DNA of 64,000 nt from Bryoerythrophyllum caledonicum (taxonomy: Eukaryota; Streptophyta; Bryopsida; Pottiales; Pottiaceae): NCBI GenBank assembly GCA_963971425.1, contig OZ020524.1, forward strand, positions 17,549,845 to 17,613,844, in the 5' to 3' direction. The notes beneath the pieces are model-generated. The model searched no databases and was not told the DNA's origin. It saw only the letters and a list, made by a program, of their open reading frames with translations. The position numbers and the translations under genes were made by a program. Positions 14,231 to 53,544 of this stretch are shown here, in pieces. How positions within the stretch are numbered: position 1 is the stretch's first letter; every line of letters starts with the position of its first letter.

Positions 14231-15454
14231 AGTCCCCATGTTGGCGTAGTGCCTACCACCATAGTCCACCCACGTATGGTGGAGGGGTCTTAGAACCTTG
14301 TTGTATGGATAACCAAAAAGCCCTTGGGGGGGACAACACGTCGGTTGTCTTTAACCCCTAAAGGACCACGACCACTTTCGCTCTAAAACCAGTCCAAAAC
14401 TGCCACTGCCAAAAAGAGACATGAAAATCACATTTTAAAGTGAATTTTGGATTTCCAACCGTAAGATCTTAAAATAGACTTCTTTATAAACATGCCGTAA
14501 AATTTTGGTTGCAATCCACCGCACAGATTGATAGATTTTAGTGTTTAAAGTCAAAACAATGGTTCATTTTCTTCCCTGCGTTGAGTAGATCAGCATACTT
14601 TGACTTCACTTTATATCAATTTTTTGCATTGTACAAGGTCTAAATATTTTGCCATTGTCTTAAGCATGATGTTATTTCCCAACACACCAATTTTTAGAGG
14701 TAAAAAAGGGGTGTAGCATATTCAAAACAAGTGTGCAAGGAGTGGGGGTTCAAAAATTGCCATTTCACGTTTTATTTTCTTGTGAACTACGTATGTATTC
14801 AAATGATAATCCAAATGGTCACTAAGAAGTTTTTCACCACATATTGTTGTTGAAAAAATAAAAAGTGAAAAATATGAAGATCTCTAGGTTATATGTAGAA
14901 AAGATGAAGTTTTTTTCCCCCATTGCCCGACAATGTGTGAAAATGTTTGACTTGGAATAAAATGCCTTTTACACTAAAGACAAGATTTTTTTTTGGAAAT
15001 TTCCAGAAAGGGAAATATTCTTTTCATGTGTGAAAAATCTCAATGTCAATAGAAACTTTTGTCAAAAAATTTGGAGGTGCCCGGTGTCCCCACTTTTGGC
15101 TTTAAGTGGTACTAACTTTCAAACCACAAATCCAAAAAATAAAATAAAAATATGTCCACGAAGCTCTTGTCAGAGGAAATCTAGAATAAAAATTTCAGAG
15201 AAAAAGGATTTTTTTTCGAATTTTAGGAACCTGCCCAAAATTAGAAATCCCCCCGAAGGAGACTTTGGTCCTTTAGGGGTTAAGGCACTTAGTGTAGGAG
15301 GCACTTTGTGTAGAAAAGTAATTATCAAGAAAAGGGGGAAGTAGATCTATTACACTACCCTATGTCCCGTGGCCATAGTCTTAGTGAAGAGAATGAACAA
15401 ACACTACATTCACGGCCGTCCCTGTTGAAAACTGAAGTTCTTCTTCTTCTTCTA
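14231..15454 (+). mobile_element. 5'-truncated SINE split by a TTAA element
   Basis: Left part 14231-14350 and right part 15284-15454 align to the 3' two-thirds of the SINE at 11401-11727 (GTAGTGCCTACCA, CCCTTGGGGG, GTCGGTTGTCT, then CACTTAGTGTAGGA and TTCTTCTTCTTCTATTAG). TTAGTATTGAA at 14220-14230 and 15455-15465 is the target duplication of the SINE. Between the halves sits a complete TTAA element. Confidence 0.8.
14355..15279 (+). mobile_element. TTAA-flanked non-autonomous element, A type (925 bp)
   Basis: Begins CCCCTAAAGGACCA and ends TGGTCCTTTAGGGG, flanked on both sides by TTAA (14351-14354, 15280-15283). It sits inside a SINE, and the uninterrupted SINE has only one TAA-like site there, which supports TTAA as a true target duplication. 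No long open frame. Relatives: 24235-25179, 29702-30746, 41593-42420, 47721-48638, 52610-53544 and a diverged one at 31740-32350. Duplication of TTAA is characteristic of piggyBac and Kolobok transposons; assignment is inference. Confidence 0.85.
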
Positions 15455-15856
15455 TTAGTATTGAAGCAATTAATGCAGTTGGTGCTTATTACGATATTCA
15501 AAATAGTGGAAAGAGGGTATGAGTACACCAATGAGTGAAGAAGGGGACAATGTTCTTGCAACATACTTTTAACAATGATCTCCACAAAAACACCAATACC
15601 CACACTTGGAGCTGTAAATTTAAAAAAATAAATTTAATCAAGTCCAAGGTAACTAGATAGGAACTAAGGAATTAGACACAAGTTTCTTTTTAAGAGACTA
15701 CTACAAGCCCCATATGAAACTATTATCCTTCACCATACACCAACAAATGCACCAATGATTTCACCATCAAGGGCACCAAACACTAGTTGAAAGATGTTTT
15801 AAGACAATTAACGAGAATACCAACAAGTCATAGTTTATATCAAAGGTGGGGTTTAA

Positions 15857-16260
15857 CCCTTAAATTTAGGTCTATTGGCGACCGTATATATGATCATGTA
15901 TTTTACTCATAGAATTCAAAAGAAGTATTAAAATTTAGCAATAGATACACCTTTGGATTGAAAATTCTTTAACTATCATCTTTCATTTGGAGGTCATTTT
16001 GATATCCGAACCTTATCATGTTCAAATACGACACCATACATGTAGAATATGTTACCATTTTGCAACTTCTCAAATATGTGGTAGGTGTAGTAATGATCCA
16101 AATTTGAAAGCCATGTGTAAATTCATGTGTCATTGGATCTGGCTCAACATAAATACAACTTTTGTAACTATTATATACAACAATTCTTACATCTTGTATG
16201 TCAAATACACAAACGAACATCATTCTGCAACCCAAATATGGCAACAAATCTCAATGTGAA
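15857..16260 (+). mobile_element. TTAA-flanked element, D type, long
   Basis: TTAA at 15853-15856 is followed by CCCTTAAATTTAGGTC. The interior matches the reverse complement of 58320-58909 (CACCTTTGGATTG, GGAGGTCATTTTGATATC, ACACCATACATGTAGAATAT, GCATC..ACATCTTGTATGTCAAATAC). The right boundary is unclear. Confidence 0.5.
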
Positions 16261-19970
<3,710 letters not shown>

Positions 19971-20159
19971 GGACGGCAACCGAGTGGTGGACGGAGCCAT
20001 CAATGCACACAACGGCACACAATTGTGTTGGTGGTTCTTCGGAGAGTGGAAGTTGCAGAATTGGGGGGACTTGGGCAAGGTTGAACTTTGCCTCAAAATC
20101 GGGCGATGGGCACGTGAGCGTGTAGAGCGGATGCAAGCGGTTTAGGGTTGTGTGACACC

Positions 20160-20900: not shown

Positions 20901-22067
20901 CAAACCTGTCAAATAGGATAGATTGTATTGAGATCCAAGCACTAATAAAAAGGGTTAAGTGTTGCGACTTGGACAATATAAATCAAGGATGAAAAGATTC
21001 CATGAATGATTCCAAGTAGATCATTCCCTCCCTAATTTTGCCCATGAGCAGGGAACTTTCTACTGATTTACTTGCAATGCCTATGAGCTTTATTTACTCG
21101 GTTATCATTTGCCCCATGGTTGATCCAATCAACACCCTTTCCCTTGGACCCACTTGGCAACATTGTGATAAAACTACCTTAATTTTGGCATGTCCCTCCC
21201 CATTTTGGCATGAGTGGCAAAGGGTTTGATTATAACAAATTTGAATCCTTATTTGGGTGGGAATTGGGGAGGAATGGTATCTTTCAGATCATTGGATGGT
21301 ATCCTTACTTTTTGGTCACTTTGGGTTTTAACTTTTTGTTTTTGTTTTTCATTCTTTATCAATGCACGAATGGCCCCCTGGTTCTTAGGATGACGTGTCA
21401 ACCGCATGTTGCATGGGTGGAGATTTTTTAAGTTAATTGATTTGATTATTTTTAATAAACAAATCGGTAAATGAAATTGACCGTGATACTGTAAGTGTAA
21501 CTTAGGGTCAAAATTCTTGGTCCCAAAGTGCCCACTATGAGTAAAGTGGCCTATCGCCGTAACTCATTTACCCCTAAGAGCTTCTCCACTGGGGCACTCG
21601 GCCCCGATGAAAATGGTTGGTCTAGCATGCGATTTCTTGTAGCAAGCAGGACTGCAACTAACACAGCCACCATCCCGCTCTGTATCTGGACCCCAGAGTC
21701 ATGCTTCAACGCCAAACTTTGAGTTCATGCTGCCTGAGCGCAAAAATATTGCAGGACTTTAAGACCACTCAGTGTGTACCACGTCGCTTGCAACAAGTGG
21801 TTGTGGCGCTTGTGGCACAAAAATGGTAACCGCACGGTAATAGTAATGGCACAGAAAGGTTGCGGTTTGCTGCAAAATGGAGAGGGGTCTAAATCGAGAC
21901 GGGGTAAGTCCATGAGAATTCACAACAGTTGGCGGTTTGGGGGGCGTTGGTACAGTTGTCCGGCTGGCGGTGCAAATCCTACAAGGAACTTGACCAGCGG
22001 GCAAAGATGACAAGGGAGTCTCCACCCTAGACATGTTTGGGATGGCGTGCATAGAGTGGAGATGCTC
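20901..22067. other. No gene recognised
   Basis: No domain-bearing frame. Bases 21520-22050 are GC-richer than the surroundings and carry small open frames on both strands, none recognised. Confidence 0.35.
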
Positions 22068-22258
22068 TAAAGGACCAAGGAATTTGAGAGAAATTTCTAC
22101 TCCATTAATTCAAAACTGCCAAGATTAGCTTTTGGAGAATGTAACCGTAGGATCTTCTTTTAAACTTAATTTTGTGAATTTTGACCTTAAAGATTGAAGA
22201 TTATCTCAGTTAAAATGATATATTTTGTACCCCACATGTACACTTGGTCCTTTATGAG
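22068..22258 (+). mobile_element. TTAA-family element, C type (degenerate)
   Basis: Begins CTCTAAAGGACCAAGG and ends ACTTGGTCCTTTATGAG, with the C-type interior (GGAGAATGTAACCGTAGGATC). The flanking TTAA is lost on the left and reads TTCA on the right. Confidence 0.5.
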
Positions 22259-22390: not shown

Positions 22391-22606
22391 CTCCTAAAGG
22401 CCCAAGTGTACCTAGACGGGGCACAAATTTGTTCACTTTGACTCTAATTATCTTTCAATCCCTACGATCAAAATTCACAAAATTTTAACCACATCATCTC
22501 ATACAAGTTTAGAAGAAGATCCTACAGTTATATTCTCAATTTTGTTTTTGGCAAATTACAATCAACGGAGTAGAGATTCCTCTAAAACGCCTTGGGCTTT
22601 TAGAGG
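22391..22606 (-). mobile_element. TTAA-flanked element, C type (216 bp)
   Basis: Flanked by TTAA at 22387-22390 and 22607-22610. Ends are CTCCTAAAGGCCCAAG and CTTGGGCTTTTAGAG. The interior is the reverse complement of 22068-22258, only 130 bases away, so the two copies form an inverted pair. Confidence 0.8.
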
Positions 22607-22728: not shown

Positions 22729-23535
22729 CCCCTAAAGGACTGGAGTCCCTTTGAGGGACACTTTAAGCTTCAAGTGAGTCCCTCAGTCTCAAATTTTGGC
22801 ATGATTTTTTGAGATTTTTTTTATTGAATGGGCAACTTCTTAATAGATTCTATTGACATAAATTTTGTAAAATCCGACTCACAGCTTAAAAGTTACAAAC
22901 ATTTTCAATAACATACAGATAGTGCAGCAATTTAGTGTGACATATTCCAATAGCGTAACAAAACTGTAATTAATTTAAAGTTCAATAGAAATTTGAGTGT
23001 TTGTACATTTAAAAATAAATAAATAAATCCTCTTTGGAAAGTGAATGGAAGTCTTTGCATTTTCCGTACGGATTTTTTTATTTCAAAATTATGAGAGGGA
23101 TATGATATATGCAAAGCTTGAAGTGTATTGTTAATTCTCACCTCATAGTTGCATTGCGAGATTTTTAAGAACATCTTCTATCCCTCTTCCACTTCTAAAA
23201 TTTGGTGCACTTGTACCTAACATGATCTTTTAAAGTTAAAACTAGAAAATCACGTACAATAGTGCAAAAATTTGTTATAGAAGGTGATCAAAATTTGTTG
23301 TAGGTTTTAGTATGACCTCAAGAAGAGTTTATGACTCACTTCAAAGGCTGGTATCTTTCAATCTCTGCATGTCAAACTAAACAAAAAAAATTACGACACA
23401 CACTTGTACAATCCTAGTACAAGATGCTATGGTTAGATATTTTTAAATTGTGTTTATTTGCCTTTGTTGTTGAAAGCATTGAAACTGGCCGTTTTAAGCG
23501 AATTTGGGTGCTAAAATGTCACGGTCCTTTAGAGG
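22729..23535 (+). mobile_element. TTAA-flanked element, B type (807 bp)
   Basis: TTAA at 22725-22728 precedes CCCCTAAAGGACTGGAG; the right end is TCACGGTCCTTTAGAGG followed by TTAG. The interior is shared with 34932-35820 (same orientation) and with 26961-27774 and 30860-31664 (opposite orientation). Non-coding. Confidence 0.75.
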
Positions 23536-24234: not shown

Positions 24235-25179
24235 CCCCTAAATTACCAGGCCATTTTCAAACCCAAAACACTTTGAAACTACTGGTTTCATTACAATGAG
24301 CAAGGAAGAAAACCACAACTTTTGCTTTCAAATTTTACCATAAGACCTCGATTAAGACTTATTAAGTAAAATACTAAAAAAAATCATAAATTTTGACTGC
24401 ACGGTTTGAAAGATTATAGTGTTTGAAGTACAAAAAAGGGTTCATTTTCTTCCCTGCGTTCAGAGGATCAACAAACTTTGACTTCACTTCGTGTCTAATT
24501 TTCGCACAACACAAGGTCTAAATTCATTACCACCATGTTAAGCAAGATATTAGTTCCTTGTACACCAATTTTTAGAGGTAATCAAAGGGTGTAGCATATT
24601 AAAAAAAAGTGTGCAAGGAGTAGAGGTTCAAAAAATGTCAATTCAAGTTTTTATTTTTTGTGAACTTAATATGTTTTAGAATGAGAATCCGAATGGTCAA
24701 TGAAAAGGGTCCCTCCACACAATGTTGTGGGGAAAATAAAAAGCAAGAAATATGAAGATCTCAAGGTTTTATGTGGAAAGGAAGAAGATTTTTTGGTACC
24801 TTGCTCAACAATGTGCAACAATGTGTGAAAATGTTTGACTTGGATTTATATGTTATTTTGCATTAAAGACAAGAGATTTTTTGACAATATGAGAGCAAAG
24901 AATATTATTTGCTAGTATTGAAAATCTCACATTCAATAGAGTGTCCTAGTAAAAGTTTTTGGAGTTGCCTGAAGTGCCCGTTCTCCCCATTTGAACTTCA
25001 AAACCCTATAGGTTTTTTTTATGAAATGTTGGATTGAGGAAAAAATTGGACTCACACAAAGCTTTTAGTAATGTCCATCCACAATAAAAAAAATAAAAAA
25101 ATAATGTTATAGATTGACAGAGAAGGAACCTGCCCAAACCTTCAAAAGTCCCCTGAGGGTACTCTTGGTAATTGAGGGG
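24235..25179 (+). mobile_element. TTAA-family element, A type (~945 bp)
   Basis: Starts CCCCTAAATTACCAGG and ends CTTGGTAATTGAGGGG followed by TTAA (25180-25183); the left flank reads GTTA, one base off. The interior matches 14355-15279 (GCATATT, GTGTGCAAGGAGT, ATATGAAGATCTC, GTTTGACTTGG). Confidence 0.75.
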
Positions 25180-26956: not shown

Positions 26957-26960
26957 TTAA

Positions 26961-27774
26961 TTCCTACAAGCCCAAGGCATTATAGCACCCAAACTCACTG
27001 AAAACAACAACTTTCATGCATTCAACACAAAATGCAAATCAACCCAGTTCTTACATATTTCACCATAGGATTTTGTACAAGGATTGTACACATGTAATAT
27101 GTGGTAAACATTTTTTTCAGTTTGACCACACGGATAAAAATATACCAGCCTTTGAAGTGAGACATAAACTCTACTTGAGGTCATACTAAACACCTTCATC
27201 AAATTTCGACCGCCTTCTATTGCAACTTTTTGCACTACGGCCCGTGATTTTCTAATTTTAACTTTAAAAGGATCTATTAGGCACATGTGCACCAAATTTT
27301 AGAAGTAGATGAGGGGTAGAAGATGTCCTTAAGAATCTTGCAATGCAACTATGTGCAAAGAATCAACAATACTCTTCAAGTTTTGCATATATCACATCCT
27401 TCTCATATTTTTTAAATTCAAAAACCCGTATAGTAGATGCAAAGATTTCCATTTCCTTTCCAAGAGGAATTTTTCCTTTTTTTTGGTACAGACAAAAACT
27501 CAAATTTCTATTGAATTTAGAATTAATCAAAGTTTTGCTACACTATTTGTTATATGTCACACTCAACCGCTCCACTGTTTGTATATGTTATAGAAAACAA
27601 ACTGTAACTTTTGAACCGTAAGTCAAATTTCTACGAAAATTATGTCTAGGGGAAGCTAATAAAAGTTTCCCACTCAGTAAAAAAAAATCTCATAAAATTG
27701 TGCCTAAATTTGAGAACTTGGTACCCTATCCAAACTCAAAATGTCCCTTGAAGGGACGTTAGGCTTTTAGAGGT
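26961..27774 (-). mobile_element. TTAA-flanked element, B type (814 bp)
   Basis: TTAA flanks both ends (26957-26960 and 27775-27778). Ends are TTCCTACAAGCCCAAGG and GACGTTAGGCTTTTAGAGG. Interior shared with 22729-23535 in inverse orientation. Confidence 0.75.
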
Positions 27775-27778
27775 TTAA

Positions 27779-27957
27779 GGGTTAGAAGTTCTAAGATGAA
27801 ATTTGTGAGAATGTAACTCTAGGATATTCTCCTAAAATTATATGTGATGGTGTGGTAAAAGGTTTGTGAATATTGACCATACAAATTGAAAAATAGTTGG
27901 AGTCAAAATAAAAAGAATTGTCTCTTGAAGGGACACTTGGTTGTTGTCAAAAGCATT
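27779..27957 (+). mobile_element. TTAA-family element, C type, abutting the previous copy
   Basis: It begins at the right TTAA of the B element and shares AGATGAAATTTGTGAGAATGTAAC and GGGACACTTGGT with C copies. The right end has decayed. Adjacent placement suggests insertion into, or next to, the same TTAA. Confidence 0.45.
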
Positions 27958-29701: not shown

Positions 29702-30746
29702 CCCCAAGGGACCAAAAGTCCCAAGGCGGGCTTTTGAAGAACTCGGGCATGTTTCTGTGGTTGCATTTATCTCCAATACTTGAAATTTTGATTTTTACCC
29801 CTAAATGCAAAAAGTTTCGAGGTGGGCTTTTGCAAATCTCGGGCACGTTCCCATGGTTGCAATTTGTATTTGCAATTCTTGAAATTTTGTACACATATGC
29901 AAGAAGACAAGAGGTACGTGGGAGTATAATTTATTCTCATTGGACTTATAGAAAAAAATTTATGTCATCTTAAGGAAAAGAATGTCGAGTGCGGGCACTG
30001 TAGCAGAACTTCCAAAAGTTTTGCTAGGATACTCTAGTTGATTTGAGATTGTCAATACTAGCAAGTAATATTATTTCCTTTCATATTGTCAAAGAATGTT
30101 TTTTGTCTTTTAGAAAAAAAAAATGCATATTATCCCAAGTCAAAGATTTTTACACATTGCCACACAATATTGAGCAAGGAACCAAAAAAACTTCTTCTTT
30201 TTGACATAAAACTTTGAGATTTACATATTCTTCACTTTTTATTTTTTCTATTACAAGACGTGGTATAAACCTTCTTAGTGATTGTTCGGATTATCATTCT
30301 AAGACATATTATGTTCCCAAAAAAATTTAAACGTGAATTGGCAATTTTCGAACCTCCACTCCTTGCACAATTTTTTGAATATGCTAAACCCCTCCTCTAC
30401 CTCTAAAAATTGGTGTACAAGGAGTTAATATAATGGTCAACATGATGATATAAAAATTTAGACCTTGTGTAGTGCAAAAACTTTGACACGAAGTGAAGTC
30501 AAAGTCTTCTGATCCACTTAACGTAGGGATGAGAATGAACCATTTTTTCTACTTCAAACATTATAATCTTTCAATATGTGCGGTCAAAGTTGAAGAGATT
30601 TTGTGAGTATGTTTCTTAATATGTGTTTAATGAGATCCTACGGTTAAAACTAGATTTTATTTTTTTTGTTTCCTTCCTTACTCATTGCACTAGAATTAAC
30701 AATTTTGAAGTGTTTTTGGTATGAAATTGACAAGGAAATTTAGGGG
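29702..30746 (-). mobile_element. TTAA-family element, A type (~1045 bp)
   Basis: Starts CCCCAAGGGACCAAAAG and ends GACAAGGAAATTTAGGGG. Flanks read TTCA and TCAA, decayed from TTAA. The interior is the inverse of 14355-15279 but has an added tandem-like segment near 29735-29930 with GTTTCTGTGGTTGCA and GTTCCCATGGTTGCA. Confidence 0.65.
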
Positions 30747-30859: not shown

Positions 30860-31664
30860 CCCTTGAAGGACCGTGACATTTTAGCACCCAAACTCACTAA
30901 AAACTGCCAAGTTCAATGCATTCAACACAAATGCAAATAAACATAATTTTTACATAGCTAACCATAGGATCTTGTACTAGGATTATACAAGTGTGTAGTA
31001 AGACTTTTGTTCACTTTGACTGCACGGATTGAAAGATACCGGCCTTTGAATCAAGACATAAACTCTTCGTGAGGTCATACTCAACGCCTTCAACAAAGTT
31101 CCATCACCTTCTATGACAAATCTTTGCACTACAAGCAGTGATTTTCTAATTTTGATTTAAAAAATTCATGTTAGGCACATGCGTACCAAATTTTAGAAGT
31201 GGAAGAGGGCTAGAAGATGTCCTTAAAAATCCTACAATGCAACAATGTGCTAAGAATCAACAACACACTGCAAGTTTTGCGTATATCATATCCTTTTCAT
31301 ATTTTTGAAATTAGAAAATCTGTACGATAGATGCAAAGATTTCCATTCCCTTTCCAAGAGAATCTTTTCTTATTTTTAGATGGACGAAAACTCAAATGTC
31401 TATCGAATTTCGAATTAGTCAAAGTTTTGTTAGACTATTTGTTATATGTCACACTCAACCACTCTACTATTTGCATATGTTACTGAAAAAAGTTTGTAAC
31501 TTTTGAACTGGAAGTTAGATTTCTACAAAATTATTGTCCTTTGAAAGCTACTAAAAAGTTGCCCATTCAATGAAAAAATGTCAAAAAATCATGCCAAAAT
31601 TTTAGGTTGAGGGATTTAATTGGAATTAAATTTGTCCTCCAAGGGAACTTTGCTCATTTTGGGG
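30860..31664 (-). mobile_element. TTAA-flanked element, B type (805 bp)
   Basis: TTAA at 30856-30859 and 31665-31668. Ends CCCTTGAAGGACCGTG and GCTCATTTTGGGG. It shares CACCCAAACTCACT and the CATTCAACACAAATGCAAAT block with 26961-27774. Confidence 0.75.
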
Positions 31665-31739: not shown

Positions 31740-32350
31740 ACTTTCACTCTAAGACAACTTTCTAGAGTGTAAAAAATTTCTCACCTTTTTTTAGGCAACA
31801 TGCACAAAACAAATTTCATTTTTTTCATAAAAATTAGAGATCTTCAATTTTTTCTCATTTCATTTTTTTCTTTAAGAAGAAACATGATATATTGTCCTTA
31901 TTGTTTGAATTTGTAAATTACACAATTTTTTTATAATTAATGATCAAATTGTGGTTTAGTGATTTTGAATGTCTTTTTGTTGTTTTTTTTCTTGAAAATG
32001 CTTCACTTCTCCAATTTCTCAAAAAATTGGGGTATGAGGAACTAACATCACGGACATTGAAATCGCATAAAATCTAAGAGCTTTTGTGATGCAAATATGA
32101 AACACCAAGTGAAGTCAAAGTTTGTAGATCCTTGAAACACAAGGAAGAAAAATATCATTTTCTTCACTTCATATTCCATAATCTTTTAATTCATATGGTC
32201 AAAGATTATGAAAAATTGTAAGTATGTAATTTTTATAGTATTAAGATCTTTCATATGGAGATGGAAATAAGAGGTATATTTTTCAATTCCTTTTTTGCAC
32301 TAAAATGAGCAATTTTTAGGGTGGTTTTGGTTAAACATTGTCATGGTCCT
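31740..32350 (-). mobile_element. Diverged TTAA-family element, A type
   Basis: Blocks TTAGAGATCTTCAATTTT, AAATTGGGGTATGAGGAACTAACATCA, AAGTGAAGTCAAAGT and GGTTTTGGTTAAACATTGTC follow the A-type order in the orientation of 52610-53544. Ends are not preserved, so boundaries are approximate. Confidence 0.45.
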
Positions 32351-33639: not shown

Positions 33640-34470
33640 ATCACTCTAAAGTAGACATTTATTTCATTTCTAATAAAAGAACCAAAATAGCAAAAAAGAA
33701 CATAGTCCATGAAATGTTTACTCCTGATAGATGTCTTTCTTGATCCTATTTTGGGCAATTTACATCCAAGAATTTTTTCCATCGCCAACCATCACTAAAA
33801 AAAACAAAAACATGTGCATGGATGAAGTACGTGGCATACATGAAATAAAAGTAAGATATATTTGGAAATGATCTATGGAGTAAATAAATAAAACGATCGC
33901 AAATAAAATTCCCAGAAAAGGGTCGCAGGTTCATAGTTGTTGGAGCATAGGATGCTTGGGTTCAATGAGCATTACAGCCATAGGAAATGAATTGTGATGA
34001 CTATTCAAATAGTACAAGCACGGCCTTCACATCAAGCCACCTCATCACACATCAAGTTACTACGGCCATAGCCAGCTCTGTGCTCTGCAGTAATGTTGTG
34101 ACATGTCACCCTTTTATTGCGGTGAAAAAAAATGAGAATTGGGCGCCACCATGTCGGTGTCTTTTGCATACGAGGAAGAGCCATTGAATTTTGGATGAAA
34201 ATGAGTCGGCGACCAAGAATGTAAGGATGGCTGCTTGGTTTACGACAGGAATCGTAGAAGTTCATCTGACTATTCACTAGATGTACCTTGCATTATATCT
34301 GTTTGGTCAGATTTATTATTATTTTGCAAACCATTCTGAGCTTGGAATTTCCTTGCGCTTTAATATTATTGTGTTAATCTATGATAATATGATAGAATGT
34401 AGCATTTTTAGGTAGGTGATTCGTAGACTTGTGTTGCTTCCAATAATTTCAAGAATACATCAATACAATA
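33640..34470. other. No gene recognised
   Basis: Bases 33960-34290 are of more balanced composition with small frames on both strands, none recognised. Confidence 0.35.
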
Positions 34471-34610
34471 GGGTTAATCCTTGAAGGTCAATATAATGGG
34501 GCTAACCCTTGAAGGTCAATATAATAGGGTTAACCCTTGAAGGTCAATATATTGGGGTTAACCCTTGAAGGTCAATATATTGGGGTTAACCCTTGAAGGT
34601 CAATCAGGAA
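34471..34610 (+). repeat. 28-bp tandem array of a TTAA-element end
   Basis: Five units starting at 34471, 34499, 34527, 34555 and 34583 read GGGTTAACCCTTGAAGGTCA plus AATAT-rich spacer, with small changes (first unit TTAATCC, second CTAACCC). Each TTAACCC junction equals the outer end of a TTAA-family element, and the last unit runs directly into the D element at 34590. Confidence 0.9.
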
Positions 34611-34931: not shown

Positions 34932-35820
34932 CCTATAAAGGCCCAATGTTCCTTTGGGGGACATTTTGAGTTTGGATAGGGTACCACGTTCTCAAATTTA
35001 GGCATGATTATATGAGATTTTATTTTATTAAACGGGCAACTTTTTATTAGCTAGACATAATTTTCATAGAAATCTGACTTACGGTTCAAAAAAGTTACAA
35101 TTTGTTTTCTATAACATATACGAATAGTGCAGTGGTTTAGAGTGACATATTAAAAAAAAAAAAAAAAAACATTGGTTGCCGAAGGTGACCTGCATGGATA
35201 AAGTGTCTGTTCGTACCACCATCTATGACATATAACAAACAATGTATCAAAACTTTAACTAACTCTAAATTCAATAGAAATTCGAGTTTTTGTCCATCTA
35301 AAGAAAAGAAAAATTCATCTTGGAAAGGAAATGGAAATCTTTGCATCTATTGTACGGATTTATGAATTTTGAAAATATGAGACAAATATGATATATGCAA
35401 AATTTGAAGTGCATTGTTGATTCTTTGCACATAGTTGCATTGCAAGATTTTTAAGGTTATCTTCTACCCCTCATCTACTTCTAAAATTTGGTGCACATGT
35501 GCCTAACATGATCCTTTTTAGTTAAAATTAGAAAATCACATACCGTAGTGCAGAAAGTTGCCATAGAAGGTGGTCAAAGTATGATGAAGGTGTTTAGTAT
35601 GACCTCAAGTAGAGTTTATGTACCACTTCAAAGGCTGATCTCTTTCAATCCGTACGGTCAAGTTGAACAAAATGTTTACCACATACACTTGTGTAATCCT
35701 TGTACGAGATCCTATGGTTAGATATGTAAAAACTGTGTTGATTTGCATTTTATGTTGAATGCATTGAAAGTGGCAGTTTTCAATGAGTTTGGATGCTAAA
35801 ATGCCTCGGGCCTACAGGGA
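34932..35820 (+). mobile_element. TTAA-flanked element, B type, with nested SINE fragment
   Basis: TTAA at 34928-34931 and 35821-35824; starts CCTATAAAGGCCCAATG and ends CTCGGGCCTACAGGGA. Without the 75-bp insertion plus its 8-bp duplication at 35151-35233 it measures ~806 bp, the usual B length. Confidence 0.75.
35151..35225 (-). mobile_element. Short SINE 3'-end insertion (75 bp) with 8-bp duplication
   Basis: TGACATAT at 35143-35150 and 35226-35233 brackets CAGACACTTTATCCATGCAGG (minus strand), followed by a run of T. The uninterrupted B element at 22729-23535 shows TGACATATT at the equivalent place. Confidence 0.7.
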
Positions 35821-38964: not shown

Positions 38965-39034
38965 CCCCTAAAGGCCCAAGAGTCTCCTAAAGGAACTTTT
39001 ACAATCTTTGGAGGGGACTCTTGGGCCTTTAGGG
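38965..39034. mobile_element. Minimal TTAA-family element (~70 bp)
   Basis: Left end CCCCTAAAGGCCCAAGAGTC and right end GACTCTTGGGCCTTTAGGG are near-perfect inverted copies separated by only about 30 bases. Left flank TTAA (38961-38964), right flank ATAA. It is essentially two transposon ends back to back. Confidence 0.8.
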
Positions 39035-39435
39035 ATAAAGCACTACTAAATTTTTACCACCTCCATCTCCCGGGACCATATTTGGCTACAATTTAAGGGT
39101 GGGATGAATGTATGCCATTCCATGTATGCAATGCTCAACCGCTTCAATGTGCTACCCTTGAAATGACAACTATTGTCCAGGATGGTAAGGAGGTGATGTT
39201 GTGTACATTGCATTCAGTACAAAAATATACATATATTATCTGATTTACATCCTACTTATTGATTGACTTCGGATATTGCCATAAGTGGATCAGTGCAATG
39301 TATCACCTACATCCATACAGCCCCAATCATGCCTTCAGGTACAATTTGACTCTAGATCCTTCATTCCCAAATTAGCACTGCAATTTAAAGTCTTGTAATC
39401 TTCTGTGGGCAACTTTTGCAGCAAAACTCCTGCAG

Positions 39436-39498
39436 CAAAGTCTGAGTTTTAGAGGGCAAAGTCTGAGTTTTAGAGGGCAAAGTCTGAGTTTTAGAGGG
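39436..39498 (+). repeat. 21-bp tandem repeat, three perfect units
   Basis: CAAAGTCTGAGTTTTAGAGG plus G, three times in a row with no difference. Confidence 0.95.
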
Positions 39499-39698
39499 TG
39501 GCCACCTCGTGTCAGCCAAAAAGACATGCCGCAGCACCCTTTAAGGACCTTGTGTTCTTTTCTAATCACCAAAGGAGGGTGAGATTTAAAAACGGAAATA
39601 TTTGCAGGGTGAGATTTCTCATCCTACATATTTCATGGGCCATGCTTATAGGACAGGCTGGAGTGTCTCAGTATGGAACTGACATGGGCTGCGTCACA

Positions 39699-39775
39699 AA
39701 TGGATTGAGTTAATTATCCAAATTCAATGAAATGGATTGAGTTAATTATCCAAATTCAATGAAATGGATTGAGTC
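39699..39775 (+). repeat. 32-bp tandem repeat, 2.4 units
   Basis: Units at 39699-39730 and 39731-39762 begin AATGGATTGAGTTAATTATC and are identical; a partial third follows. Confidence 0.95.
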
Positions 39776-40214
39776 AGTTACTGGAAATAATAGCCGCATT
39801 TACTCATGTTCCCAATAAGCCAGAATTACCCATTAAGTTGAGTCAGAGCATCGCCAACACTACAACGCGGAACTGACGCTATACATCCCTTTACCACGTC
39901 AATTTGCGTGGCATGGGGAAAGATGTGGCGGGGCGAGCTAGCTGCTCCACAACAACACTCTCTACTTTCAACGCGACACATAAGTGCAAGCTGCCACGTC
40001 ATCAACGAGCTGCCACATCAGCAACGAGCGGTGACTTAAGGTCCTGGAGAGCATGAAGTCTCTGTGCGATGTGGGTAGTGGCCGTGTCCTTTTTTTTTTT
40101 CTTGATTTTGGGAGTTTTGGTGAGTGAGTTCCAATGGAACAATGGAGAGAAGAGTTGTGCAAGAACTTGCAAGCGGAACTTGAAGATGATGAGTGCGAGA
40201 AGCAAGTTTAGGCT

Positions 40215-41417
40215 ATGCTTGTAGCTCAAATGGGAGAGTTTGAAGATGAAGAAGAGAAAATGAGAGCTGGAGGGAGTAGGCGAGGAAAAGCAGCCAATGT
40301 TGATAGGAATTTTGAGAGGGGTCATGAGCGCATCTACCATGATTATTTCTCTGATAATCCTATTTTCGGTCCTGTGATGTTTAGACGCCGTTTCCGAATG
40401 AAGAGGGAGTTGTTTGTGAGAATTATGGACACCATTTGTACTTATGATTGCTATTTTGTGCAAAAAAACAACTGTGTAGGGACATTGAGGTTGTCGTCGT
40501 TACAGAAGTGTACGGCGGCCATGCGTATATTGGCGTACGGGGTTTTAACAGACGCCACCAATGAATATTGTTGCATCGGGGAGAGCATGGCTATGGAGTC
40601 TATGAAGAGGTTTTGTATTGTTGTGAGAGCGTGCTTTGGTGCCACATACATGCGTAAGCCCACCCGCTCTAATATTGTGAATCAAATGCTTATTAATGAG
40701 GGTCGGAGATGGCCATGCATGTATGGTTCATTGGACTGTATGCATTGGATGTGGAAGAATTGCCCCATTGCATGGCATGGACAATACCAAGACAAGGATG
40801 GCAACCGCAACATTATCCTTGAGGCTATTGCTGACCAATCCCTGTGGATATGGCATGCATTTTTTGGATTGCCAGGGGGCAACAATGATTTGAATGTTTT
40901 GGATAGGTCCATTGTTATTGAGGACATTCTTATAGATGAGGGGCAAGACTTGACGTTCACTGTGAACGGCAATGTCTACCCTAGATTCAATTTGTTGACT
41001 GACGGGATTTATCCAAAATGGAGTTGTTTTGTCCAAACAATTCACGAGCCCCAAGACAAAAAGTGCAGCCACTTTGCATCAATGCAAGAAGCCACCCGCA
41101 AGGACATTGAGAGATGCTTCGGTGTTTTGCAAGCTCGCTTTGAGATTGTGAAGAATCCGTGCAGGCAGTGGGACGTGGACACTATGGGTGACTTAATGCT
41201 AGCATGTTGCATTATGCACAATATGATCATTGAGGACGAGCATGATTTTGATTTAGAAGTCATGTTTGATGGTCGTCCAGGTACTCGAGTTCAGAGAGGG
41301 GTGAATTGGGAATTCATCCGCGGTATGGCAGAGATTGAGCACACTGGGAGGCATTTTGCCTTGAGAAACGATTTAGTGGAGCACTTGTGGGAGTTGAAGG
41401 GTGAGAATACCTATTAG
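40215..41417 (+). CDS. PIF/Harbinger DDE transposase (ALP1/HARBI1-like nuclease)
   Basis: The 400-residue frame is typical of plant Harbinger transposases. It shows RRRFRM near residue 57, GSLDCMHWMWKNCP at 171-184, ILEAIADQSLWIWHAFFG at 201-218, GGNNDLNVLDRS at 221-232, LTDGIYPKW at 261-269 and RKDIERCFGVLQARFE at 295-310. Likely catalytic residues are Asp174, Asp263 and Glu299. The enzyme would cut and paste the element by a DDE (RNase H-fold) mechanism, normally with the Myb-like partner encoded at 43125-44087. The same frame continues upstream from ATG 40134 (MEQWREELCKNLQAELEDD) but is broken by TAG at 40209, so the original N-terminus is probably about 27 residues longer. The DDE domain is intact. 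Confidence 0.88.
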   Translation: MLVAQMGEFEDEEEKMRAGGSRRGKAANVDRNFERGHERIYHDYFSDNPIFGPVMFRRRFRMKRELFVRIMDTICTYDCYFVQKNNCVGTLRLSSLQKCTAAMRILAYGVLTDATNEYCCIGESMAMESMKRFCIVVRACFGATYMRKPTRSNIVNQMLINEGRRWPCMYGSLDCMHWMWKNCPIAWHGQYQDKDGNRNIILEAIADQSLWIWHAFFGLPGGNNDLNVLDRSIVIEDILIDEGQDLTFTVNGNVYPRFNLLTDGIYPKWSCFVQTIHEPQDKKCSHFASMQEATRKDIERCFGVLQARFEIVKNPCRQWDVDTMGDLMLACCIMHNMIIEDEHDFDLEVMFDGRPGTRVQRGVNWEFIRGMAEIEHTGRHFALRNDLVEHLWELKGENTY

Positions 41418-41592
41418 AGGGTTGACGCGTTCCTTTGAGATTATTTGCCATTACGTACATTGGAGTAGTCACTTTTATGCTATTGTGTTCTTCATACATG
41501 TTTTTGAAGTTAATGGAAATCATGCGATTAGTTTTCATGAAATTTTACCATACATTATGACAATATGAAGTATTGTATTGTTGTTTATTTAA

Positions 41593-42420
41593 CCCCTAAC
41601 GGCCCTTGAGAATTTCACACCAAAAACACTTCAGAATTGTTAAATCTAGTGCAATGAGTAAGGAAGGAAATGAAACTTTGTATTTATCCTTTTGACAAAA
41701 AGATCTCCATTAAGTCTTACTAATTAACATACTCACAAAATTTCATACACTTACAGAATATTACCTATATATATACACTTACAGAATATTACCTTTGTTG
41801 AAGTTGTCAAAAAACATTATTGTCTTTACTATAAAAAGATCCCCTAAACCAAACTCAAACATTTTTACACATTTCCGGCAAAGGAGGGAAATCTTTATAT
41901 TTTTTTCATAAAACCTAGAGATCTTCATATGTTTCACGTATTTTGATTTTTATAGAAATATGTGGTGAAAAACTTCTTATAAATCATCTACATTATCTTT
42001 GTAAAGCAAAAGATTTAAAAAAAAAAACGTGACTTTGCAATTTTTGAACCTATACTCATTATACAATTGTTTTCAATATGCTACACCGCTTCTCTACCCC
42101 TATAAATTGGTTTACAGGCAATGAACATCATGGTAAACAGAGATTTAAAAAAATTTAGACCTTGTGCAATGCAAAATATTGATACCATGTGAAGTCAAAG
42201 TTTGCTAATCCATCGAACACATGGAAGCAAATGAAGATTTTTTTTGATATCAAACACTATAATCTTTTGATCCGTACAATGGATTGCAACCCAAAAAATA
42301 AGATAAATTAATATTGAGCTTTGTTTTAACATCTTACGGTTAAAAGTCCAAAACTAGAGTTGAAAATGAGATTTTTTTGCAAGTTACTCATAGTCAGAGT
42401 TCTGGAGTGTTTCATGAGGG
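41593..42420 (-). mobile_element. TTAA-family element, A type, inside the Harbinger element
   Basis: TTAA at 41589-41592 then CCCCTAACGGCCCTTGAG. The interior is the inverse of A copies. The right end decays: the DNA near 42330-42420 resembles the same end again in opposite orientation (CTTACGGTTAAAA, GAGTGTTTCATGAGGG), giving a fold-back structure. Confidence 0.6.
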
Positions 42421-43124
42421 AAAATGTCTTTCTCTATTACAAGTTACTGCTAAAATAACAAATTTCAATTGAATTTGAATATTTACAAAACAAGGCTATG
42501 GTGTATAGGCCTTATGCATTTAAATTAAAATTTGAGGACTCTGCTCGAGTCTCAGAAACAACTACAACACTTCCATTTTGACATAAATGGTTGTATTGGG
42601 ATTCAGAGTTTTTCTGACTAAAATCATTTAAATTGTATGAGTGGCTAAAACCTTGGAACACACCAAAACTCTCAAGGCCAGGGGAATTGAAATTGTTGTT
42701 GTACCTATGATTTTGTGGTATGAAGCCGCTAGAAGGACTCTCCGTGAATTGTAATCTATCACTATATGCATGCAAGTGAGAGTTTCTTGACGGAGTTGGG
42801 CTTGGTGATGGGCCAGGTTGCGTGAAGTGAAAAGGGCAAGGTCGCAATCGTTGATCTGCGGAGGCTGCGTGCAGTGGGTAGTGGGACTGCAGGTGGTCTC
42901 ATGTCGCCTTCGGAGGCTGCTGCTGCAGTCTCAGTGGACTGCACGACGCCGACTTTGAGGCCGGGTTGGGAGACGTTCGGACGTGCATGCGACGGTGAGA
43001 GACGCCTGCATGAAGTTGGCAATTGCGGTGAAGTTGGCTGGCGATGCGCCAGACTCCAGGTTGCAGGCCCCGAAGGTTGACACAAATCGTGTTCCTCATG
43101 CGGCGTCGACGTCGGACCTGAACT
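42421..43124. other. Harbinger interior without a called gene
   Basis: Part of the element between the nested insertion and the C-terminal end of the Myb-like gene. Bases 42760-43120 are GC-rich; frames on both strands there (for example 42512-42847 minus, PS-rich) may be the tail of the Myb-like protein or its 3' region. No domain recognised. Confidence 0.4.
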
Positions 43125-44695: not shown

Positions 44696-46301
44696 CAGTG
44701 ACGGACAAAATGGTTTCAGTGTTTCAAGTGGTGTCACTCTTTTACTTCTGTAGCTTGTAATAATGGGTCAACAAAGATAAATTTTGGAATGAAGAATTGG
44801 TGTATGTTTTGGAAGACATGGTGCAAGATTTGAGACAATTGAATCCAAAGGGAATAAAAAAAAAGGTGGCTTTCATTAGAGACAAAACATTGAAACAATT
44901 TTGGCCCTGACAATCAATATTTAGTTGGGCTTCCTTTGGCCTTCAAAACAGTGTGCACGGGCGTGGCATGCTATCTATTGTAGTGAGGATTACTTCTATA
45001 CTGATGTTGTACCACTCCTTGTCCACCCTCTCCTATAATTCCAACATCCCACTCAGGTGATTCAAAAAATGCATTCAAACGATGTTTGAGTTGCTTCCAC
45101 AAATGTTCTATTGGGTTGAGGTATAGAGATTGTGCTGACCATTTCATTACTTGCAAGCCAAGTTCTTCTAAACATGCCTTTGCCTTTCTAGAAGTGTGCT
45201 CTGGGTCACTATCTTGCAAGAATGTGACATGCTCAACACCCAAATTGTATTGATAAAGAGAGGGCATGAATTTGTTATGTAGAATCTTCCGATACAAGTT
45301 TGCGTCCATCTTTCCTACAATGTTAGTGAGGTGGCCTACGCCTTGAGTAATCATGGAACCCCATGTCATGACCAAACCACCACTGTGTTTCACTCTGGCT
45401 TGAGTAGTGCAATTTGATAGTGCCTCTCCTTGCTATTTCCAACACCCATTGTCCATCTGAACTAAGAAGATTGATCTTTGTCTCGTCCAACCACACTACC
45501 CCCCTCCAATCCGTTACCATATAATCCTTAAGGGTGTTGGCAAAGTCCATACACGCTCAACGATGCTTCTCGGACAAGAGTGGCTTTTGTGTCTTTAAAG
45601 ATTACTTGTAGTCCACCCTCCTTGAGAGCCCTGCACACTATCTTAGGACTAACTACAATATTGGGGTCTCAAGCTAAGTTTGCTACAATATCAACAACCG
45701 TATAACAATTTCCACATGTGATGTATTGCAAAATATTTTGTTTGTCAATATCTAATAGAAGCCCGGGGCGACTAGCACGACAAGCAACGTGCTCTGGCAA
45801 CTTCTACTTTGCTACCCGACTCTCTGTAGCAACACCAACGCCAACTTGTCGGTCAGCCTTGTGCACGCTAAGTCCAATCAATAGCAAGTGAACAAACACA
45901 TCCTCTTTATCAATTGGAGTTTTTTTCATACTAATGAGCAACAAAGAGAAGAAACAATAGAGAGTATATACTAGTGAGAAGAAACAACAAAGAACATGTA
46001 CTTGTAAAACAAAAACAACTAATTTTGCATGCAAGTCTCGAGAATGTCACATGATCATTTATAGTCAGTGATGAAATTGTCAAAGGTGTAGGGTCAAAAC
46101 TGTTTCAATGCACTTGTTGTGCATGCACAACTTTCATTCCATGCACAAACCTTATCACGTGACAACTTTTGCATACTTTGTTGACAGATAGGATTTGAAC
46201 AAGTTTTGTTGAAGGTTGACTTGTATTTTTTTTACAACTTGACATACAAGGTGTGTTTGAAATATCTTAGTATAGCATTGAAACCATTTTGCCCGTCATT
46301 G
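44696..46301 (-). mobile_element. Tc1-like transposon (1606 bp) nested in a MITE
   Basis: The left end CAGTGACGGACAAAATGG and the right end, read inverted, CAATGACGGGCAAAATGG agree in 23 of 26 bases. Left flank TA (44694-44695), right flank CA (46302-46303); alignment to the intact MITE shows the original site was a single TA. It carries one decayed transposase gene on the minus strand. Confidence 0.85.
44971..45830 (-). pseudogene. Tc1-like transposase, interrupted
   Basis: N-terminal helix-turn-helix remnants (ASRPGLLLDIDKQNILQYIT, then SPKIVCRALKEGGLQV) are followed by WLDETKINLLSSDGQ, GGLVMTWGSMITQGVGHL, FLQDSDPEHTS and LNPIEHLWKQLKHRL. The Asp of LDETK, the Asp of LQDSD and the Glu of PIEHLW give the DD34E spacing of Tc1 transposases. 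A stop (TGA near 45669) and frame changes near 45545 and 45370 break the gene. The normally conserved SPDLNP reads SLYLNP. Tc1-type enzymes are common in animals and fungi; their presence here is notable. Confidence 0.82.
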
Positions 46302-46420
46302 CATGTTGACAATGATTATCCTCTTTGAGTAGTATTTATACTTGTATTTTTATGAAGTAAAAAGTCATAGTATCATTAAATCATATAGTGGATTTACACT
46401 AAATCTCATATTCAGTGCGC

Positions 46421-46644: not shown

Positions 46645-46801
46645 CATTCACTTCACATATTGTAGACCATATTAGTTAGATTTTCTACACGTACTCAAAA
46701 TTGACACACACTTGCTTGAAAATGAATACCCTCTCAAAACTATTGAAGTTTAATAGAAGTAGAGAAATGGTGGCATAAGCAAATGAAACACACAAGGTAT
46801 T

Positions 46802-47007
46802 ACAAACAATGTGTGGAGTGGGATATTGCCTTCTTTCGAAGGCCTTTACTTATAGTACCAATTGGTAATAACCTTCGCCAATATATATGGGACTACCTCA
46901 AGTTCCTTTCACGCCTCTCTATTTTCTCTCCTTTTACCTTTTCCTCTAAATTTATCTCTACTGTTTACAATGTTGTAACAACTACAAGCAACCCTTAAAT
47001 TCCAACA
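46802..47007 (-). repeat. 3' LTR of the copia element
   Basis: Minus strand begins TGTTGGAATTTAAGGGTTGC. It aligns along its whole length with 51932-52133, with many substitutions, so the insertion is old. Confidence 0.75.
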
Positions 47008-47019
47008 CTCCCACTTTGC

Positions 47020-50000
47020 GAATAGTCACCTTCTTGCAATCCCACCTCTTTCGTTAACATATGATGTCCTTCCATTGCAAACACATTTGTCAATACATTC
47101 ACAACCATGTCTTCCGTTGGGCAATATTTCAAGTTTATCTTGCGGCCCTCCGATTTCTCTCAAATAAAACGATGTTGCACATGGACGTGCTCTATACGTA
47201 AAAAAAGTGTGGGGGTTCTTTGCAAGTTTTATGCATCCTTGGTTGTCGCACATGATGGTGGTTGCTCTTTCTTGAACAAGCCCCAAATCCGCCAAAATCT
47301 TACAAAGCCAAACGGCCTCTTTGATATATTAACTAGTAGCCATGTACTCCGCCTCCGTCGTCGACAAGGCAATGGTAGGTTGCCTCTTGAAATTCCACAA
47401 GATGAAACCAACTCCAACCAAAAAACCATACCTCGTGGTCGACCAACGCTCGCTTGCATCTCCGGCCCAATCTGCATCACAATACCCTCTCAAAGAAATG
47501 TCCTTATTACCAAGGCACAACTTGTAGTCTATGGTATCTTGCAAGTATCGCAAGATGCACTTTTAAGACACTCCAATGTGCCAAATCAACCTTGGACATG
47601 AATGGGCTCACCATGCTCACCAAAAAAATTAAGGTCGGCGGGTGTGCCTACTATGGCATATCAACAATCTAAGTCCCACCTTATACAACGCACCTTCCAT
47701 CTCCTTTTGAAACTTCTTAACCCCTAAGAGCCCAAGTGTACGTGGGACGTACATTTTGGATTTTGGGCAGGTTCCTAAAATTAATTTTTTTTAAAACTCT
47801 TACACTAGATTGTCCCTGATAAGAGCTCCATGGAGATATTTTTATTATCATTTTTGGATTCATGGTTTGAAAGTTAGTACCACTCAAAGTTAGAAATGGG
47901 GACAGCGGGCAGCTCCAAAATTTTGCTAGAAGTCTCTATTGACATTGAGATTTTCCACACATGTAGAGAATATTACATTCTTTGAACATGTCCAAAAAAT
48001 TCTTGTCTTTAGTGTAAAAAAACATTTTAACACATTATTAACACATTTCGAGTAAGCGAGGAAATAAACTTCATTTTTTAAATATAAAACCTAGAGATCT
48101 TCATATTTCTCACTTTTTATTTTTTCTGCAATAATTTGTGGTGTAAACCTTCTTATTGACCGTTTGGATTATCATTCTAAAATTTATTAAATTCTAAAAT
48201 TTATTAAATTCTAAAAAATATATTGTGAATTGACAATTCTTGAACCTCTATTCCTTGCACACTTGTTTTGAATATGCTACACCCCTTCTCTACCTCTAAA
48301 AATTGTTGTGTATTAAACTAACATCATGCTCAACACAATGGTAAAAGATTTAGACCTTGTGTAGTGCAAAAATTTAATACCAAATGAAGTCAAAGTCCGT
48401 TGATCCACTCAACGTAGGGAAGAATAAGATCCATTTTCTTGACTTCAAACACTATAATCTTTCAATCCGTACAGTCAAAGTGTATGAAAATTTTGTGAGT
48501 ATGTTACTTAGTAAGCCTTTATGGAGATCCTACGGTCAAAAGGATAAATATATGGTTTTGTTTCCTTCCTTATTTATTGGACTAGAATCAACAATTTTGA
48601 AGTGTTTTTGGTGTGAAATCATCATGGGCTTTTAGGGGTTAAATTCTTCATCCAAGAGCATCAACAACTTGACATTTCTATCAAACGGGTTACCGATGGA
48701 GTTGTACTCGTTCATGTTGAAGCGCTTCATTACCTCCTCAATGTACTTACATTGGCTCATAGTGATGGTGCGCGCTTCACGATCCCTTTCAAACTCAACT
48801 CCAAGGCAATACTTCTACTTACCAAGATTGCTCATCTTAAACTCTTCGTTGATTTTGGCCTTGAGTCATGCCAAACTTTGCCAAAAGGCTAGCCAAGATG
48901 ACCAAATCATCTACATAGATGCGGACTATCAATAAGTACTCACCTGTTTGCTTGATGTACAAGGAATGGTCCCCTTGGCTCTTTGTAAAACCCTCATTGA
49001 TAAAGAAATAACCAATGCGTTGGTAACATGCTCTTGAATTCATACAAGGAATTCTTAAGCTTGCACATAAGATGATCAAAAACCTCTTGTACACATCTTT
49101 GGGATTAGTCCATGTAGATGTCTTCCACCAACTTCCCGTTCATGAATGCGGTCTTTACATCTATTTGTTGGATTTCCAAGTCCAAGGCTATTCAAAGTGC
49201 AAGGATGTACCGAATGGTGGTGACCATGGCAACGGGAGCAAATATTTCAACAAAGTCCACTCTGGCAACTTGAGAGTATCTCTTGTCCACCAATTGTGGC
49301 GCACCACTTGACTCAAAGCACCATTCCTTTTTCGAGACATCTACTTGCATCCGACGCTCTTGCGATTCTTTGGAAGAGGAGTCAACTCCTATGTACCATT
49401 TGCCATAAGTGACTCAAACTTTTCTTGCTTAGCCAACTCCCACTTGCTCGCATATTCTAGTTGAATAGCCTCACACATATTCAAAGGGTCTTCCAATGAC
49501 GCTATATTGGCATGCTCGACTTCATATCGAGACAAAATATGGCTCTTCCACCATTCATTGGACGGTCAATGCTCCGTTCTTGTATACTATGGCTCTTGTG
49601 AGTTTCCGAAGTCATCATCGCTTTGCAAAAGTGATGATGAAGACGCTAAACCTCCTTTTCTGGCATCCAACCTCTTCTCTGTCTAAATATCACCATCACA
49701 ACTATCTAAAGGTCGTGATTTCGGAAATTTGTCTACCAAAACCAAGCTAGAGACCTCATTATCCCTACTAGGACTCATTTCTAAACTATTAATAATACTA
49801 GTGCCATCCTCAACAAATACTACATTACAACACTTAATGATTTGTTTCGTTTCAATGCACATTAGTAGATATGCCTTAGTGTTGTGGCTATAGCCAAGAA
49901 ACGAACACTTTGTGCTTTTTTGCATCAAGCTTATTCCTCTTTGTATATGGCGCCATGGCATATGCAATACATCCAAAAATATGTATATGTGTAATGCATG

Positions 50001-51900: not shown

Positions 51901-51931
51901 GTAAGTGAGATATTGCCATCTTAGTGAGTCA

Positions 51932-52133
51932 TACCAAACAATGTTTGGAGTGAGATATTGCCTTCTTTTTAAGGCCTTTACTTATCAATTGGTAACAACC
52001 TTTGACAATCATGTGGAACTACCACAATTTCCTTTCACCTCTCTCCATTTTCTCCCCTTTTATTTTATCCTCTAAATCTACTTCAACTATTAACAATGCA
52101 GTAACAACTACAAGCAACCCTTAAACTCAAACA
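51932..52133 (-). repeat. 5' LTR of the copia element
   Basis: Minus strand begins TGTTTGAGTTTAAGGGTTGC. Just inside it TGGTATGACTCAC may be a decayed primer-binding site for initiator tRNA-Met (usual TGGTATCAGAGC). Confidence 0.72.
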
Positions 52134-52605
52134 AAAACTTGACATGCATGTGCTTGATGTAAAGTAGTGTAGATTTTCCGCTATGTTAATAAATCCACAC
52201 TGTATAAGGTGTAGAGAATAGTGAAAATGACGTAACAAAGTGTCCAAGGAAAGTGAGGTTCCTCGGTAATCTTTGCTGCAAATTCAATTGCTTTTGAAAA
52301 TTTGCAAAGAAAAGCACCAAGAACCAAATTTTTTTTGGATACAAAAATCTTTGTGTACTTGCAATCTATCTAAAACAAAATATTGATTAGTGTATTCATG
52401 TATCTAACAAGACGGTCATTTAGTTAGTATAAGAAGTAGCTTTATTATTGAGAGTAGCTTCTAACCATACTTCTATAGTAAAGTAATAGCTTGATCTATG
52501 TTTTTAGAAAATCCACAATAATTCTTATGTTCTGCATCTTATAGAGTCCAAGTGCATAAGCTATCAATTCAAATATGAAGATGAGAACGGAAGTGAAAAC
52601 ATTGT
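52134..52605. other. No gene recognised
   Basis: AT-rich spacer between the copia element and the next TTAA element. Confidence 0.35.
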
Positions 52606-52609
52606 TTAA

Positions 52610-53544
52610 CCCCTAAAAGACCAAGTGTCCAAAAAGGGCTTTTTGAAAAATTGGTCAGGGACCTATGGTGTCAATTTCCAACATTCCACTTTAAAATTTT
52701 TACTATAGAAAGACATTACCAAGAGCTCAGTGGGAAAATAATTTTTTCCTAAATTGGACATTTGATGAAAAAGTTATAGGGTTTTGAATTTTAAATGGGG
52801 AAGACGGGCACCTCGGGCACCTCCAAAAACTTTTGATAGGACACTCTATTGAAAGTGAGATTTTCAGTACTTGCAAGTAATATTATTTCCCTTCATGTTG
52901 TCAAAAAAAAGTTCTTGTCTTTAGTGAAAAATAGCATACCAACCCAAGTCAAACATTTTTACACATTGTCACTCATTGTCGGGCAAGGTACCAAAAAAAC
53001 TTCTTCTTTTCCACATAAAACCTAGAGATCTTCATATTTATCACTTTTTATTTTTTCCACAACAATATGTAATGTAAACCTTCTTATTAACCATTCGGAT
53101 TATCAATCAAAAACATATTAAGTTCAAAAAAAATTAAAGTGTGAATTAACAAATTTCGAGCCTCCACTCCTTGCACACTTGTTTTGAATATGCTACACCC
53201 AATCTCTACCTCTAAAAATTGGTGTGTAAGGAGCTAACATCATGCTTAACAAGATGGTAATAGATTTAGACCTTGTGTAGTGAAATTTTTTGACACCAAG
53301 TGAAGTCAAAGTCTGTTGATCCACTAAGAAAATGAACAATGTGCTTGACTTCAAACACTATAATCTTTCAATCCGTGCAGTCAAAGTTTATGAAATTTTG
53401 TACATGTATTGCTTAATAGGCCTTTATTGAGATCCTACGGTTAGAACTAAAAATAAAAGTTTTTGTTACCTTCAGTATTCATTGCACTAGAATCCATTAA
53501 TTTTGAAGTGTTTTTGGTGTAAAATTGTCTTGGTACCTTAGGGG
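52610..53544 (-). mobile_element. TTAA-flanked element, A type (935 bp)
   Basis: TTAA at 52606-52609 and 53545-53548; ends CCCCTAAAAGACCAAGTG and CTTGGTACCTTAGGGG. The interior is closely related to 47721-48638 and inverse to 14355-15279. Confidence 0.85.

Follow-up and report, generated by a model that had tools for sequence, protein, structure and literature searches.

Known piggyBac transposases bind pairs of transposon ends, excise the element via hairpins and insert it at TTAA, duplicating these four bases. Most knowledge of the superfamily comes from animals, fungi and protists, and in plants it has been called occasional, with red algae as an example (PMC12732532). PiggyBac-derived miniature inverted-repeat transposable elements (MITEs) have been described in corals as the CMITE families, which duplicate TTAA, have CC[C/T]T-type tips and share their ends with transposase-bearing piggyBac elements (PMC2872659). 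In this work we analysed a stretch of 64,000 bases of contig OZ020524.1 from the moss Bryoerythrophyllum caledonicum (hereafter the window), which contains repeated units with common ends flanked by TTAA, and we scanned the assembly to which it belongs (437 Mb, 894 contigs). Our observations make it very probable that these units belong to the piggyBac superfamily as non-autonomous, MITE-like elements, and that they stand beside transposase-bearing relatives in the genome of a land plant. They resemble the coral families in the three properties listed above and differ from them by their host, that of CMITE being an animal, by their tips, which read CCCYTAAA, and by the thousands of candidate places found for a single type, type A, the best 40 of which were scored.

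The first-pass annotation of the window had seen no matching transposase there and had suggested a search of the genome for longer elements with the same ends and an open reading frame. Such elements were found, and their frame carries the piggyBac DDE domain (PF13843), with at least 120 matches in the genome and a best E value of 6e-81; this count is a lower bound, as 116 of 305 candidates were scored. None of the 120 places lies in the window, and no PF13843 was found in the six of its ten long frames that were scanned, in agreement with the annotation. The regions around the best 20 matches were read, and their domains, grouped at about 85% identity (a cut-off of our own), form eight subfamilies, named E1 to E8. 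The catalytic D-D-D triad, aligned to D268, D346 and D447 of Trichoplusia ni piggyBac, is present in all 20 domains and the equivalent of D450 in 19; 13 domains are free of internal stops and seven have one or two. In the four proteins scanned, PF13843 is the only Pfam match and the long N-terminal part has none. The Cys and His residues of a C-terminal cysteine-rich motif are invariant in the four aligned proteins; when the frame was read on from the domain at the 20 loci, this motif was missing at the end in two of them (L040 and L047) and variant in a third (L038). Relatives in PDB are limited to piggyBat (9c0f) and the piggyBac transposase of T. ni (6x67). PF13843, the triad, the cysteine-rich C terminus and TTAA at both ends place the transposase-bearing elements in the piggyBac superfamily, and these properties, together with CC-rich short terminal inverted repeats (TIRs), are those of T. 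ni piggyBac and Myotis piggyBat. The differences from these two systems are the land-plant host, the length of the stop-to-stop frames (813–860 codons for three proteins out of the four that were read, 594 residues in the T. ni chain of 6x67) and the length of the elements (about 4.6–7.0 kb with nested inserts, and N runs in some, compared with 2,472 bp for T. ni piggyBac; PMC10140906). Since piggyBac elements of animals are reported to reach 9.51 kb (PMC10813416), size alone is not new. L029, L032, L034, L039 and L048 each have a run of 200 N upstream of the transposase domain, which leaves some of E1 and E5 unread. As to accessory genes, none of three scanned open frames located elsewhere than in the transposase has a Pfam match above the cut-off. 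An open frame of 526 codons without such a match lies downstream of the E8 transposase (L044, 6989–8566, + strand).

TTAA-flanked, CCCYTAAA-like ends in the right orientation bracket the transposase at 10 of the 20 loci (L029, L032, L034, L036, L037, L038, L040, L041, L042 and L045). These pairs were chosen by us, and because at any one locus the ends of background MITEs might look like a pair, the strong proof comes from the comparison of two copies. The homology between L037 and L042 (4.9 kb, 97% identity) comprises the element and TTAA on each side and stops exactly there, as does that between L041 and L045, which is aligned in two pieces totalling 5.1 kb at about 96.5% identity. The longest piece aligned between L032 and L034 (5.8 kb) has 99.4% identity, and the flanks of these two copies differ; the homology runs past TTAA by one base on the left side and by five bases on the right side. 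Among the other loci, three are cut by the contig and have a 3' end only (L031, L033 and L035), two have a matching end only upstream (L044 and L046) and two only downstream (L039 and L048), and no clean pair was seen in L030, L043 and L047.

Ends were searched for with the motif CCCYTAAAGGMCC (element ends are otherwise written CCCCTAAAGGACC). The window contains 27 matches to CCCYTAAAGGMCC with up to two mismatches, compared with a mean of 2.53 and a maximum of 7 in 100 shuffled sequences, and 15 of the 27 are directly preceded by TTAA, a tetranucleotide that occurs at a rate of 0.006 per position. Across the genome there are 8,632 exact ends (4315 and 4317) against 38 (15 and 23) for the reversed-pattern control; TTAA directly precedes 7,089 of them (82%; 3504 and 3585), and none in the control (0 and 0). 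The abundant TTAA-flanked family with shared ends that had been proposed from the window is therefore borne out by both sets of counts. TTAA borders both ends of six elements of the window: the type A element (14355–15279, + strand, 925 bp, with a 14-bp TIR), two type D elements (47721–48638, 918 bp, and 52610–53544, 935 bp, both + strand), two type B elements (30860–31664, − strand, 805 bp, with one worn tip, and 34932–35820, + strand, 889 bp, with worn TIRs) and a type C element (22391–22606, + strand, 216 bp). The five units that the first-pass annotation had given as examples all prove to have TTAA on both sides.

The type A element and the type D elements at 24235, 47721 and 52610 have a common core of about 550–775 bp with 73–79% identity, as judged on these four copies and on those in L001, L002 and L005, whereas type B (22729, 30860 and 34932) is a separate group, with 80–82% identity over the main matches. 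Thus, of the five or more internal types that had been distinguished in the window, B stands apart, but A and D have a common core and the types are not all independent. The opening 240 bases of type A, counted from base 1 of its 5' end, are 80% identical (193/240) to the E5 3' end, and the type D element at 52610 matches the 3' end of E1 at its 5' end (88/112) and the 3' end of E5 at its other end (36/44). Without the shared 13-base tip, and compared with 150 simple shuffles each, type A scores 144 (shuffled maximum 31), its second copy in L005 102 (22) and type D 52 (29). Types A and D lack a transposase, duplicate TTAA and have ends in common with piggyBac elements, which are the properties of piggyBac-derived MITEs. 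The choice that the first-pass annotation had left between piggyBac and Kolobok very probably falls on piggyBac: the enzyme of types A and D is assigned to this superfamily because PF13843 is carried by elements that agree with them in tips and TTAA flanks and share subterminal DNA with them. In the genome, 39 copies of type A besides that of the window were obtained among the best 40 of 6,107 candidate places, a lower bound on copy number, and each is 94–95% identical to the window copy over nearly its full length. That no scored copy exceeds 95% fits a burst from one source. L004 contains a 506-bp copy that matches type D at both ends and resembles an internally deleted form of that type.

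Empty sites provide a further view of the target. A longer list of junction-spanning matches was obtained, and in the 14 alignments of it that were displayed the unoccupied paralogue reads a single TTAA in seven (83–93% identity); in the other seven (74–88% identity) it reads TCAA five times and CTAA once, and one alignment is offset by gaps. The TTAA cases comprise three E1 and two E7 sites, an 879-bp non-autonomous element of L032, which has TTAA on both sides and whose place in L029 reads one TTAA, and the type A copy of L005, an unoccupied near-duplicate of whose flank reads one TTAA. The E1 sites are those of the L032 element (window 24415–24737 and 53050–53315, and L001) and the E7 sites those of the L045 element (window 6391–6554 and 15895–16050). 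TCAA was found for three E3, one E1 and one E7 site, and the gap-offset case is an E1 site, so that TTAA is read in five of the eight E1 and E7 sites displayed and in none of the three E3 sites. The duplication of TTAA proposed in the first-pass annotation is thus supported by the empty sites as well as by the genome-wide counts.

Several observations weigh against the assignment of the units to piggyBac or against parts of it. Half of the empty sites displayed (7/14) do not read TTAA. The three displayed sites of E3 (L042) have TCAA throughout, and the most similar of them is identical at 103 of 117 positions. Decay is the simple, if unproven, reading of the variant sites; the TCAA sites of E3 would fit either decay or a target that mutated to TTAA, neither being proven. 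Duplication of TTAA and duplication of TA, TTA or TAA combined with longer ends are indistinguishable by sequence alone, although the family of the transposase and the conservation of all four bases favour the former. The other end of type A is at background (score 28 for a shuffled maximum of 26, and 29 for 26 in the L005 copy), and for E5 no 5' end was found: reading upstream in two additional copies led into a region dense with nested elements, in which no boundary could be settled. Beyond the tip, types B, C and mini have modest subterminal matches at best. Their best scores are 22 and 29 for type C at 22391 (shuffled maxima 26 and 24), 33 and 32 for type B at 22729 (25 and 24), 27 and 29 for type B at 30860 (24 and 27) and 15 and 19 for the mini element at 38965 (18 and 22), the highest values in this set being those of type B at 34932 (40 and 44, for maxima of 27 and 30); these types would belong to the family mainly by virtue of their tips and of TTAA. 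PF13843 was found in none of 14 control genomes, which is a weak control and of little use for a eukaryotic family if these genomes are prokaryotic, as we assume. Lastly, transposition itself was not observed.

Other enzymes could in principle have mobilized these units. Kolobok and Sola3 elements are also reported to duplicate TTAA, and TTAA alone would fit the idea that they made the non-autonomous copies; our search covered the piggyBac model rather than models for the Kolobok and Sola3 transposases. However, PF13843 was found in elements that have these very tips and TTAA flanks, and subterminal DNA of these elements recurs in types A and D, though for types B, C and mini such evidence is weak. 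We consider a Kolobok or Sola3 origin to be highly improbable. Two other transposase sequences lie in the window itself: a 401-codon open frame of the PIF/Harbinger type (40212–41417, + strand; PF04827 Plant_tran, E value 2.5e-81) and a DDE_3-like fragment below the curated cut-off (44971–45432, − strand), DDE_3 being, we assume, Tc1-type. PIF/Harbinger enzymes make a three-base TWA duplication, and as TTAA contains TTA, TAA and TA, mobilization of the units by the PIF/Harbinger enzyme or by a Tc1-type enzyme could leave a TTA, TAA or TA duplication inside it. Yet no flanking ends were identified for the PIF frame, no CCCYTAAA-tipped inverted repeats bracket it within 39000–42600, and the window gene was rejected as the source on this ground; moreover, the full TTAA is present at 82% of the 8,632 ends, and both tips and flanks are common to elements that carry a piggyBac transposase. 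We consider mobilization by either of these enzymes to be scarcely credible.

The transposases might also come from contaminating animal or fungal DNA and be unrelated to the plant MITEs, a view to which the position of four of the 20 best matches on small contigs (C749, C854, C162 and C384) lends some weight. The other 16 are on chromosome-size contigs, 15 of them on contigs that also have matches to the chlorophyll a/b protein family (PF00504), C6 having none, and contamination was rejected on account of these 15. In addition, three of the transposase-bearing elements (E1 in L032, E3 in L042 and E7 in L045) are inserted in repeats, unoccupied copies of which are present in the window and at other loci, and a foreign origin of the transposase sequences appears extremely unlikely. 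PF00504 has 58 matches on chromosome-size contigs, some of them weak pieces. For one light-harvesting exon (L049), the top single-length PDB chains are 8htu (470.5 bits) and 7xqp (468.6 bits), which we take to be from the moss Physcomitrium, followed by 8c29 and others at about 440 bits, presumably from seed plants, and 6kac at about 399, presumably from a green alga; a longer chain, 9vfj_2, is higher when summed over repeated domains. These matches point to a land-plant host that is probably moss-like. A viral source was also rejected, one scan of viral contigs with A1 having given 57 pattern matches and no relative.

Piggybac-type mobilization of the MITEs can be pictured by analogy with the known enzymes. 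A transposase of the E5 or E1 type would bind the shared ends of the MITEs, excise them by hairpin chemistry and join them into TTAA, with duplication of this target. Type A could have arisen from an E5-like element, by internal deletion or by capture of its pair of ends, and have multiplied afterwards. The near identity of some copies suggests that the piggyBac population was recently mobile. A broader proposal, which we put forward tentatively and hold to be somewhat more likely wrong than right, is that moss-grade land plants harbour a native, diverse and still moving piggyBac lineage, characterized by a long N-terminal extension, whose enzymes cross-mobilize thousands of MITEs, these MITEs accounting for a sizeable part of the genome. 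If true, this lineage would be a major active piggyBac system in a land plant and a plant-derived source of TTAA-specific seamless transposition.

The mechanism is already known, and what is new is the host, a land plant, together with the scale and the diversity of its recently mobile piggyBac population and abundant MITEs. Several passages in the literature limit this novelty: abstracts state that piggyBac is found in plants (PMC10813416 and PMC10140906), piggyBac is named among plant superfamilies (PMC10794571) and among the superfamilies found across all groups studied, land plants included (PMC4438587), and a table for ferns gives 1,230 PiggyBac pieces totalling 122 kb (PMC6890710). The opinion of the first-pass annotation that such elements are little described in land plants nevertheless agrees with the term occasional used for plants (PMC12732532), even though other papers do list them. 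No title on piggyBac in mosses was present among the open PMC matches listed, a search that did not extend to subscription journals and Repbase, where earlier records may exist; a moss genome paper among these matches has the word 'piggybacking' in its abstract. Pokey of Daphnia also belongs to the piggyBac superfamily and is described as targeting ribosomal DNA. At least 120 transposase matches, eight subfamilies among 20 loci, near-identical copies with open frames and thousands of TTAA-flanked ends widen the known host range of piggyBac and raise the question of vertical descent or horizontal entry. Plant-adapted TTAA transposases are also candidates for seamless genome engineering.

Other related sequences are present in the window. 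A similarity search with 14 non-autonomous queries (nine of them window elements themselves) and nine transposase-bearing pieces yielded 19 clusters, close to the twenty or so units first reported, which cover 9,865 of the 64,000 bases; several are fragments without ends. Four units have TTAA on one side only: a type B element (22729–23535, + strand, 807 bp; preceded by TTAA and followed by TTAG), a type D element (24235–25179, − strand, 945 bp; TTAA on the right), which is also an empty-site paralogue for the E1 copy of L032, the mini element (38965–39035, + strand, 71 bp), which has a long inverted repeat and TTAA on the left, and a composite A/D-related sequence (41593–42375, not oriented) with one TTAA-flanked end at 41593. 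Type D is further represented by two fragments on the + strand, of 766 bp (29981–30746, found by similarity search) and at 31987–32347 (70–72% identity), and type B by a copy with worn ends (26970–27773, − strand). Type C has two other copies, at 22065–22258 (69% identity) and at 7450–7642 (77%), the latter outside the interval first annotated, and a fragment at 27806–27940 (77%), all on the − strand. For the type A insertion at 14355, the unoccupied paralogue (11506–11652, − strand) has CTAA in place of the expected TTAA. TTAA-flanked ends with no partner and two mismatches each are present at 14168 and 53731. A tandem array of 28-bp units lies at 34460–34604; several of the units contain TTAACCCTTGAAGG, a sequence similar to the element tip beside TTAA. 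Elsewhere in the genome, a cluster of five weak PF00504 matches is present on C4 (G000, 18.74–18.82 Mb) and may encode early light-induced proteins, which are expanded in desiccation-tolerant plants. Finally, a 62-bp match occurs four times in the window at 55002–55609, with a spacing of about 180 bp.

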